Source: Magnetospirillum molischianum DSM 120 (lineage in GTDB: Bacteria; Pseudomonadota; Alphaproteobacteria; Rhodospirillales; Magnetospirillaceae). From it: a stretch of DNA of 64,000 bases. The position numbers and the translations under genes are program-made. The notes beneath the pieces are model-generated. The model had not been told where the DNA came from, did not search any database, and was given only the letters and a program-made list of their open reading frames with translations. The stretch lies in contig NZ_CAHP01000015.1 of assembly GCF_000294655.1 (NCBI RefSeq), positions 606-64,605 of the forward strand. Direction: 5' to 3'. How positions within the stretch are numbered: position 1 is the stretch's first letter; every line of letters begins with the position of its first letter. Positions 41,766 through 43,163 of this stretch are shown here, one piece after another.

Positions 41766-42119
41766 TCAGACCGTAAAGGAATTACCACAGCCACAAGTGG
41801 CTGTAGCATTGGGATTGGTAATTTGGAATGACGAGCCGATCAAATCATCAACGAAATCGACAACAGCACCATTCAAAAGATCGAGCGATGCCTCGTCAAT
41901 GACAAGGGAGATACCCCGCTCATCAAACACTTTGTCGTCGTCATTTACGGCGTCATCAAGGGTAATTCCGTACTGAAAGCCAGAACACCCCCCTCCTGAA
42001 ACCGAGAGACGCAACTTTAGTCCCGGCTTCGCTTCAGCCTCGATCAGAGTGCGCACGCGTGCAGCGGCGCTTTCAGTCACGCCGACTCGAGCATTGGAGA
42101 GCGAAAGGGCTTCGGTCAT
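41766..42119 (-). CDS. erpA: Iron-sulfur cluster insertion protein ErpA (A-type carrier)
   Basis: The 117-residue A-type carrier has the three conserved cysteines: one in SGGGCSGFQYG and two in the C-terminal CGCGNSFTV. It passes Fe-S clusters from scaffold proteins to targets. The ATG at 42119 (MTEALSLSNARVGVTESAA) fits the family start; upstream in-frame sequence to 42248 is proline/arginine-rich and not part of the family. In many relatives erpA lies beside dgt and xth; here these genes are separated. Confidence 0.92.
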   Translation of the reverse strand: MTEALSLSNARVGVTESAAARVRTLIEAEAKPGLKLRLSVSGGGCSGFQYGITLDDAVNDDDKVFDERGISLVIDEASLDLLNGAVVDFVDDLIGSSFQITNPNATATCGCGNSFTV

Positions 42120-42249: not shown

Positions 42250-42542
42250 GCCGGGTTAGCTCAGTTGGTAGAGCAACCGCCTTGAAAAGTTACGAGTGCC
42301 TTGGGGGAAACCCCGAGAGTAGAACCGCCCAAATTCGGGGAAAGCTACCGCCTTCGACTGAAGGCCACGCCAATCCCGAGCCAAGCCCCATCATAGGGGA
42401 AGGTGTAGAGACTAGACGGGTGGCACCTAAAGCCCCAGTGGCAACGGTGAAGGGATAGTCCAGCCCACGAACGTAAGGCGGCGAAAGCCGAAGTGGGACG
42501 GTAAGCGGTAGGTCGTCAGTTCGAGTCTGACACCCGGCACCA
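42250..42542 (+). tRNA. tRNA-Thr(UGU) interrupted by a group I intron
   Basis: Exon 1 is 42250-42283 and exon 2 is 42501-42542. Joined, they make a perfect 76-nt tRNA: acceptor GCCGGGT/ACCCGGC, D stem GCTC/GAGC, anticodon stem ACCGC/GCGGT around loop CTTGTAA (anticodon UGU), a 5-nt variable loop, T stem GTCAG/CTGAC with TTCGAGT, and an encoded CCA. G1-C72, C2-G71 and G35-U36 agree with threonine identity. The intron breaks the anticodon between U34 and G35. Unspliced RNA could not form the anticodon arm, so function depends on splicing. Confidence 0.93.
42284..42500 (+). ncRNA. Group I intron (IC3-like), probably self-splicing
   Basis: The 217-nt intron follows a U and ends in G. Helices found by eye: P1, exon CUU with guide GAG at 42294-42296, giving the U-G splice-site wobble. 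P2, CUUGGGG/CCCCGAG capped by GAAA. P3, 42325-42330 with 42418-42423. P4, 42334-42339 with 42375-42380. P5, CCUUC/GAAGG. P6, CCCC/GGGG. P7, GACUA 42410-42414 with UAGUC 42456-42460. P8, CACC/GGUG. P9, CCCAC/GUGGG with a GAAA-capped P9a. The core text (GGTGTAGAGACTAGACGG, then ATAGTCC) strongly resembles the Azoarcus tRNA-Ile intron. There is no internal reading frame. Confidence 0.92.
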
Positions 42543-43086
42543 TCAACCAACATCTCACCGCCGCCAATTCGACTAATGTGTACGGCTGCGGAAGGCGCGA
42601 ATGCGCCACCGCCGAAATCAGGTCAACCGAGCAAGCAGACCTTCCGACAAGAAAAAGCGATTGGTGAGCCGAAAGCGCACACCGTTCTATCCAAAAACGA
42701 CTGCGTCGCTACAGCATCCAGCGGTGATCGAGACGGTCGGATTGTCCAGGTCTGGGACACCCGATCCGAGACCGACTCGGAGCGCAAGACGCGGATCAAT
42801 ACCCCGCTCCGGGCTGCGCTGGCCGAGATCGACGCGGCACCGGTGCGGCCGGCCGCTCCGGGCCGGTGCTGGCCGCCCAAGCCGCCGGGACGGCTCCCGC
42901 TGCCGATGACGGTGGCGCGGCTGACCGAACTCGATTCCCAGGCCGCCGCTCTGCGGCTGGTGTCGTGATGCCACTCGCAACCAGATCAGAAATCACTGAC
43001 GTTTTGTCAACCGCCCGGCTTCCAAGAGGCGGGGGCGGATTTGAGACCGCTGGCTTTGGCGGGAATCCTGAGATCTTGGAGGATGG
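42543..43086. other. 544-nt spacer between two tRNA genes, no recognised gene
   Basis: The interval between tRNA-Thr and tRNA-Arg holds only low-confidence frames. The longest, 42576-42968 on the plus strand (130 codons), has an Arg/Pro/Ala-rich C-terminal part (LRAALAEIDAAPVRPA), no convincing ribosome site and no family I recognise. The 3' half is very GC-rich. It may be a decayed gene or remnant of an element inserted at a tRNA 3' end, but I see no integrase, attachment repeat or conserved RNA. Confidence 0.4.
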
Positions 43087-43163
43087 TGGCGCGCCCAGCA
43101 GGATTCGAACCTGCGACATCTCGCTTAGAAGGCGAGTGCTCTATCCAACTGAGCTATGGGCGC
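43087..43163 (-). tRNA. tRNA-Arg(UCU)
   Basis: A complete 77-nt cloverleaf on the minus strand: acceptor GCGCCCA/TGGGCGC, D arm GCTC AGTTGGATA GAGC, anticodon stem CTCGC/GCGAG around CTTCTAA (anticodon UCU), T arm GCAGG TTCGAAT CCTGC, discriminator G and encoded CCA. It reads AGA codons. No intron is present. Confidence 0.96.

Follow-up and report, generated by a model that had tools for sequence, protein, structure and literature searches.

A group I intron within the anticodon of the tRNA-Thr(UGU) gene of Magnetospirillum molischianum: a probably imported split gene with relatives in DNA that interrupts native tRNA genes

Introduction

The group I introns described in bacterial genes for tRNA-Leu(UAA), tRNA-Arg(CCU), tRNA-Ile(CAU) and tRNA-fMet are IC3-like: small, without an open reading frame (ORF), placed in the anticodon loop, with a U.G pair at the splice site and a P1-P10 core. 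Here we describe an intron with these traits in a tRNA gene of Magnetospirillum molischianum DSM 120, at positions 42250-42542 of a 64,000-nucleotide (nt) stretch of contig NZ_CAHP01000015.1 (the window, meaning the whole stretch that was analysed). Its core family also occupies Leu(UAA) and Arg(CCU) in relatives, as in the known bacterial tRNA introns. Unlike these, however, the window intron has tRNA-Thr(UGU) as its host, interrupts it between U34 and G35 and has a guide sequence fitted to GUAA.

The passages available from the open-licence PubMed Central (PMC) literature that we searched (including PMC3984707, PMC4033280, PMC8450103, PMC5733544, PMC6341768, PMC9840617, PMC11835236, PMC6125680, PMC3293823, PMC4390854 and PMC10865867) name as bacterial hosts Leu(UAA), fMet, Ile(CAU) and Arg(CCU), plus short inserts in cyanobacterial Arg, Gly and Lys tRNAs. 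They report neither a bacterial tRNA-Thr group I intron nor a group I intron in a rescue tRNA. One source attributes "group I introns" to the majority of chloroplast tRNA isotypes, Thr included by exclusion, with the core structure absent from its available passages (PMC9840617).

Also close to our case is tRNA-dependent lysogeny (Guerrero-Bustamante and Hatfull, 2024; PMC10865867). As in that system, so far as the available passages describe it, relatives of the window's gene have a native tRNA-Thr(UGU) broken at the anticodon and a tRNA-Thr(UGU) carried by the inserted DNA. Unlike in that system, the rescue tRNA of the relatives contains a group I intron, located at the crossover or beside it (in the available text of PMC10865867 the word intron occurs once only, in a reference title), and the window itself has no broken halves. 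In archaea, a tRNA-Thr(GGU) intron and a tRNA fragment from a mobile element have been described (PMC3293823), and Randau and Soll's idea that disrupted tRNA genes protect against integration is cited in PMC4390854. In the passages available, these cases resemble ours in the tRNA fragment upstream of an intron-bearing tRNA, in an intron brought by an element and in the protection proposed; unlike the archaeal introns, those described here are bacterial ribozyme introns, and the cases are many.

From the architecture and covariation of the intron, the match of guide and host, the single copy of the gene, the differing intronless gene of the congeners and the broken native genes elsewhere, we consider it likely that the whole split gene, exons and intron together, was imported in place of a native intronless tRNA-Thr(UGU), and that its lineage serves as the rescue tRNA of elements in several relatives.

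Results and Discussion

The split tRNA-Thr(UGU) gene

With introns allowed, ARAGORN reported a tRNA-Thr(UGU) with a 217-nt insert at 42250-42542. The joined exons (42250-42283 and 42501-42542) form a 76-nt cloverleaf with the anticodon UGU and an encoded CCA, and carry G1-C72, C2-G71, G35 and U36, which we take to be threonine identity bases. Requiring the 5' exon to end in U and the intron to end in G leaves a single solution, with the break between CUU and GUAA, thus confirming the site between U34 and G35 proposed in a first-pass annotation of the sequence. The Rfam group I model RF00028 matched 42274-42476 over its whole length (48.2 bits, just under the gathering score of 50; E 2.7e-11), and our own covariance model, R1, matched the intron at E 1.2e-26, the window core being 1 of its 26 training rows. 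The gene consists of the following parts:

42250..42283, plus strand: 5' exon of tRNA-Thr(UGU), nt 1-34, last base U34 (ARAGORN with introns, splice rule)
42284..42500, plus strand: group I intron, 217 nt, final base G (RF00028 and R1)
42290..42296, plus strand: internal guide sequence UUACGAG (complementarity to the exons)
42300..42317, plus strand: P2 hairpin, 42300-42306 / 42311-42317 (covariation)
42325..42423, plus strand: P3, 42325-42330 / 42418-42423, around P4, P5, P6, P6a and the P7 5' strand (covariation)
42410..42460, plus strand: P7, 42410-42414 / 42456-42460, pseudoknotted with P3 (covariation)
42424-42427 / 42446-42449, plus strand: P8 (covariation)
42464..42497, plus strand: P9, 42464-42468 / 42493-42497, plus a P9b GAAA hairpin at 42480-42489
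42501..42542, plus strand: 3' exon of tRNA-Thr(UGU), from G35 through the encoded CCA (ARAGORN, splice rule)

In an alignment of the cores of 26 related introns, the window's among them, 99.7% of the 754 cells could pair under a hand-named structure of P3-P8 plus P7 (29 pairs), against only 29-50% for versions of the structure slid along the alignment. Fifteen of the 29 core pairs changed on both sides, a number reached by 0 of 500 shuffles, which rules out an artefact or chance resemblance; a protein-spliced intron is ruled out by the group I core itself. When the anticodon stem, P1, P2, P9 and P10 were added to the core and the resulting 57 pairs were counted over 19 Thr(UGU) introns, 97.2% paired and 18 pairs, including 6 of the 7 in P2, changed on both sides; past its two inner pairs, P10 was kept in just 7-8 of the 19. 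The fold of the window pre-tRNA had a z score of -2.86, equalled by 2 of 200 shuffles, and its unconstrained minimum-energy form contained the cloverleaf stems with P1, P2 and P4. Covariation and the RF00028 match thus bear out the 217-nt group I intron of the first-pass annotation. Its assignment to type IC3 fits as well, judged on these features alone: a short P2 and a tRNA anticodon host, both presumably marks of IC3, and the lack of P5abc, a mark taken from a literature passage. At 217 nt, the intron is too short to hold a homing endonuclease gene.

The guide sequence is complementary to the entire seven-base anticodon loop, CUUGUAA. Guide GAG pairs with exon CUU in P1, with the U.G pair at the splice site, and guide UUAC pairs with GUAA of the 3' exon in P10. 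Such a fit to the intron's own host was general: over 140 introns, guides formed a mean of 3.61 of 4 pairs with their hosts, compared to 2.65 (maximum 2.80) in 1000 permutations of the hosts. The test used 140 of 150 introns, the other 10 having no P2 loop motif, and chose the wrong site in one Thr(UGU) row (L193).

The cell should need this gene. A search of the genome returned 44 further tRNA matches, Thr(GGU) and Thr(CGU) among them, and typing all of them ruled out the intact second tRNA-Thr(UGU) that would have undermined the first-pass annotation, at least within the 61-contig assembly (an unassembled copy is conceivable). The ACA codon is used 25 times in the 2651 codons of seven ORFs taken as genes, and by ordinary wobble the GGU and CGU anticodons do not read ACA. 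Yet default ARAGORN (no introns) and Rfam at its gathering score reported nothing at 42250-42542. A tRNA that the cell should need would thus depend on a ribozyme that escapes default searches for tRNAs and with Rfam, and genomes with such a split gene therefore appear to be without tRNA-Thr(UGU).

Import of the gene

Relatives were found with an intron query and then with R1, and a targeted scan of named genomes yielded 19 contigs of Alpha- and Betaproteobacteria, each with an intron-bearing tRNA-Thr(UGU). Carriers included Massilia alkalitolerans, Zoogloea sp. LCSB751, Pseudochelatococcus lubricantis, Paraburkholderia humisilvae and a metagenome-assembled genome (MAG) of Acidiphilium. Eighteen contigs were typed as tRNA-Thr(UGU) with the identical site between U34 and G35; the nineteenth, from Variovorax sp. 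OV329 (L194), was cut by the locus edge, matches window positions 42250-42493 and has both exons on its longer, full record. Because the scan pattern fixed CGAGT, P1 and the first P10 base are given by construction in the named set; the introns of the window and of genome G247 were found independently of that scan. The contig of G247 is one of the 19, so that the Thr(UGU)-intron set comprises 20 genomes (the window's, G247 and 18 named).

The exons of the window's gene match these foreign copies far better than they match the gene at the same locus in the congeners, and so we infer that the split gene was probably imported and replaced the native one. The two closest congeners (G015 and G005) have an intronless tRNA-Thr(UGU) at the same IscA-like locus, and their alignment with the window continues from that neighborhood up to nt 26 of the tRNA. 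This congener tRNA is identical to the window's spliced tRNA at 56 of 76 positions, whereas 18 intron-bearing relatives agree with it at 69-76 of 76 (one aligned over 77) and G247, from a different family, at all 76. Similarity to the intron-bearing contigs ends within 8 bases of the tRNA ends. The flanks of the gene are:

41766..42116, minus strand: iron-sulphur (IscA/ErpA-like) gene (Pfam PF01521)
42543..43086, no strand assigned: 544-bp spacer that separates the two tRNA genes and shows no similarity to the congeners
43087..43163, minus strand: intact intronless tRNA-Arg(UCU) (default tRNA/Rfam search), where similarity to G005 restarts

The 544 bp between the two tRNA genes correspond to about 14.2 kb of other DNA in G005, where the ten ORFs compared with Pfam showed no mobile-element domain; in G015, nothing in the 16 kb available matched the tRNA-Arg side. 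A 130-codon reading frame in the window spacer (42576-42968) had no Pfam match and is probably not a gene. A lone AATGTGTAC 33 bp past the window tRNA resembles an arm of the Paraburkholderia element; it was given no weight, the pattern having been chosen post hoc.

Broken native genes in relatives

In 4 of the 20 genomes, DNA bearing the split copy has inserted at the anticodon of the native intronless tRNA-Thr(UGU) and broken that gene in two, and ARAGORN typed all four rejoined pairs of halves as tRNA-Thr(UGU), with one stem mismatch apiece in G1066 and G1069. In a Thiobacillus MAG (G1055), the DNA that separates the halves measures 2.4 kb and comprises the complete intron-bearing gene, a gene for a ParE-like toxin and a 138-amino acid frame that looks by eye like an integrase N-terminus, though Pfam and NCBIfam gave it no name. 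The halves in Paraburkholderia sp. CNPSo 3272 (G1066) are on one contig, separated by about 5.9 kb; they enclose orf99, the recombinase genes Int1, Int2 and Int3, and orf154, and after these the intron-bearing gene. In both Hydrogenophaga (G1064) and Pelomonas (G1069) the parts are spread over two contigs: one has the 5' half adjacent to these five genes, the other has the intron-bearing gene with the 3' half 94-97 bp behind it. The full set of broken native tRNA, carried tRNA of the same isotype and recombinase is thus on one contig in G1066 and on two each in G1064 and G1069. Int1 and Int2 of G1064 matched the phage integrase family PF00589, Int3 only under the cut-off; the recombinases matched NCBIfam models only at scores far under the cut-offs, and PADLOC had no match for the two submitted.

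Parts of the same arrangement recur. Massilia (G1054) has the 5' half, Int1-Int3, orf154 and the split gene, with orf99 not detected; in the Acidiphilium MAG (G1060) Int3 and orf154 adjoin the split gene; in Burkholderia sp. WAC0059 (G1070) a 3' half follows it after 98 bp; and in G1061 a 3' half lies on a different contig. A search for intact intronless tRNA-Thr(UGU), which can miss divergent copies, gave a 79% match in G1070 with no isotype assigned, and a weak 25-base match behind the Zoogloea gene was not counted. Overall, 5 of the 20 genomes have the recombinase operon next to the split gene or to the 5' half, and 8 show some sign of an element (a half or the linked operon). Relatives of Int3 occurred in 6 of 22 genomes tried, five linked and one remote (G1062), and in 3 of 398 genomes of the phylum sample. 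The linked cases alone (5 of 20 vs. 3 of 398) gave a p value of 8e-6, which is to be read knowing that Int3 was chosen from this same 20-genome set and that the E-value limits differed.

As a side observation, possible defence genes are carried close to the split tRNA of Hydrogenophaga and of Pelomonas (L333, 2060-6005; L331, 12733-14825): they encode ThsB-like and TIR proteins, a HAD_SAK_2 protein of the RNA-repair type and a metallophosphoesterase.

Lone halves beside intron-bearing tRNAs

The association extends to other hosts. Lone 5' halves of the same tRNA, on the same strand and at most 1.5 kb upstream, accompany 26 of 149 intron-bearing tRNAs and none of 94 controls (Fisher p 1.7e-6, with related introns that are not independent and with controls, the intronless tRNAs of the window genome and relatives, that were not matched by genome). 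The 26 are likely an undercount, because most flanks spanned 0.6-1.5 kb. Both halves are present and rejoin without mismatch at a tRNA-Leu(UAA) (L043) and at another tRNA-Thr(UGU) site (L087). In the six cases with both halves, by our own reading, the intron site falls inside the overlap of the halves or at most 1 base off; in G1066 this overlap covers nt 28-35 (8 bases, imperfect).

Some of these loci have further features. Between the halves of L043 (395-1888) and L087 (440-1884) lie mini-elements of about 1.4 kb, each made up of the intron-bearing tRNA and a single open frame, without an integrase. Counted from stop to stop, the frame has 309 codons in L043 and 266 in L087, where it looks HNH-like by eye. 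At L137 (156-380), two tandem tRNA-Thr(CGU) 5' halves precede an intron-bearing copy, as if from two successive integrations. Among the 94 controls, a lone 3' half was seen once, at L244, about 1.3 kb downstream of a tRNA-Thr(UGU) that has no intron; this is perhaps an element with an intronless rescue tRNA.

A possible course of events and its alternatives

The imported gene could be understood as follows. Recombinases of the elements would cut the anticodon loop of the native tRNA gene, and the carried tRNA would then rescue the cell, by analogy with the phage tRNAs in the available passages of PMC10865867. The intron would hide the carried copy from the recombinase. In the window, such an element may have delivered the split copy and later been lost, perhaps via recombination between the two 5' exons, with no remnant left as proof. 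Tentatively, and with slightly more doubt than trust, we extend this to the tRNA group I introns of proteobacteria at large: they may act as attachment-site shields. On this view, the element brings a replacement for the isoacceptor that it disrupts, and an intron sited at the crossover, or adjacent to it, would prevent recognition of this copy by the element's own integrase and by elements that arrive later. Splicing would preserve the function of the tRNA, and once the element had decayed, the split gene would remain as the only copy. If so, these introns would have a function, selected for splitting the integrase target inside a rescue tRNA, and both their anticodon position and their spread between species and tRNA hosts would be explained.

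Several observations weigh against this account. Neither halves nor a linked operon were found in 12 of the 20 genomes (regions fetched or searched). The window has no native half and its genome no relative of Int3, and its 3' spacer is unlike any element end, so that an origin from an element rests on the relatives; the link with elements could be a later association. Five intronless genes from within the family agree with the window exons at 59-68 of 76 positions, and with as many as 68 a donor nearer home is possible. Downstream lone 3' halves are not clearly enriched (6 of 139 vs. 1 of 94). Genome G925 has a full-length Int3 relative (48% identity); the 8 kb seen contain neither a tRNA nor a half, the 3.8 kb searched with R1 gave no match, and the genome is not among the R1 matches listed. 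The RF00028 score of the window intron is 1.8 bits below the curated gathering score of 50, and splicing of the pre-tRNA is itself deduced from its sequence.

The counts of 3' halves and the G925 case also favor the reading that introns and broken halves meet incidentally, integrases and introns both preferring anticodon loops and the intron having no protective role. Mycobacteriophage tRNA-dependent lysogeny works, too, with phage tRNAs that the available passages do not describe as intron-bearing (PMC10865867). This reading is quite plausible, although we lean against it: against it stand the 5' halves, present beside intron-bearing tRNAs and absent from the controls, and the intron sites that coincide with the half overlap to within a base.

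Two other alternatives concern the window gene itself. A vertically inherited tRNA-Thr(UGU) could have acquired its intron through reverse splicing or DNA transfer; a possible source is a tRNA-Leu(UAA) intron, with which the Thr(UGU) introns have in common the CUU end of the 5' exon and P1 (CUU:GAG). In trees built with the guide columns excluded, the 19 Thr(UGU) introns need 2 or 3 label changes (shuffles, about 18), and the rows closest to them are mostly Leu(UAA) introns on both trees. The tree with 2 changes holds 144 of 151 introns (L145 and six longer than 320 nt left out), and that with 3 changes holds 130 (14 more long or remote rows left out); in the latter, a single Thr(UGU) clade is not rejected (p-AU 0.334). 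The Thr(UGU) introns thus appear to cluster, with many weak branches, and we do not claim a single origin as proven. Gain from Leu(UAA) may be how the first Thr(UGU) intron arose. For the window, it is unlikely, since the exons depart from the congeners' native gene and match the foreign intron-bearing copies. It is far less probable still that the gene is decaying or silent, with an intron that no longer splices and ACA read otherwise. A score just under the Rfam cut-off might suggest it, but the core, guide and exons are all intact, no other UGU tRNA was found among the 44, and ACA codons are in use. The gathering score was passed by 0 of 10 Thr(UGU) sibling loci tried and by 3 of 17 introns across all hosts; with 14 of 17 below it, the cut-off rather than the fold is at issue. 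Low RF00028 scores may explain why such genes go unannotated.

Range of hosts

With R1, kin of the intron turned up in all three genome samples: 52 of 317 genomes for the order, 49 of 385 for the class and 41 of 398 for the phylum (window genome included each time). Splits were resolved at 173 loci, giving 151 distinct introns, and 16 loci could not be resolved, of which L111 and L127 look Lys(CUU)-like by eye. The hosts cover ten anticodons: Leu UAA and CAA, Arg CCU and UCU, Thr UGU, CGU and GGU, Lys CUU and UUU, and CAU; L145 (Leu/Ser) was ambiguous and set aside. ARAGORN had labeled several relatives His, Ser, Ile, Phe and others; these labels came from wrong splits and were rejected in favor of a rule requiring a U (or C) at the end of the 5' exon, a G at the end of the intron and a paired anticodon stem. 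The first-pass annotation had called a threonine host unusual and perhaps undescribed. The second part holds for bacteria within the literature searched; the first does not, since 19 named contigs besides the window carry such a gene.

Introns in Lys(CUU), Lys(UUU) at two sites, Arg(UCU), Thr(GGU) and Thr(CGU) (L039, L047, L051, L124, L163, L049, L236, L050 and L057) are likewise in hosts absent from the searched literature. Three tRNA-Leu(CAA) introns (L224, L231 and L234) lie between C34 and A35; the 5' exon seemingly ends in C, and the splice-site pair would be C-G in place of U.G. One of them belongs to genome G1053, which has three intron-bearing tRNA genes: CAU (L229), Leu(UAA) (L233) and Leu(CAA) (L234).
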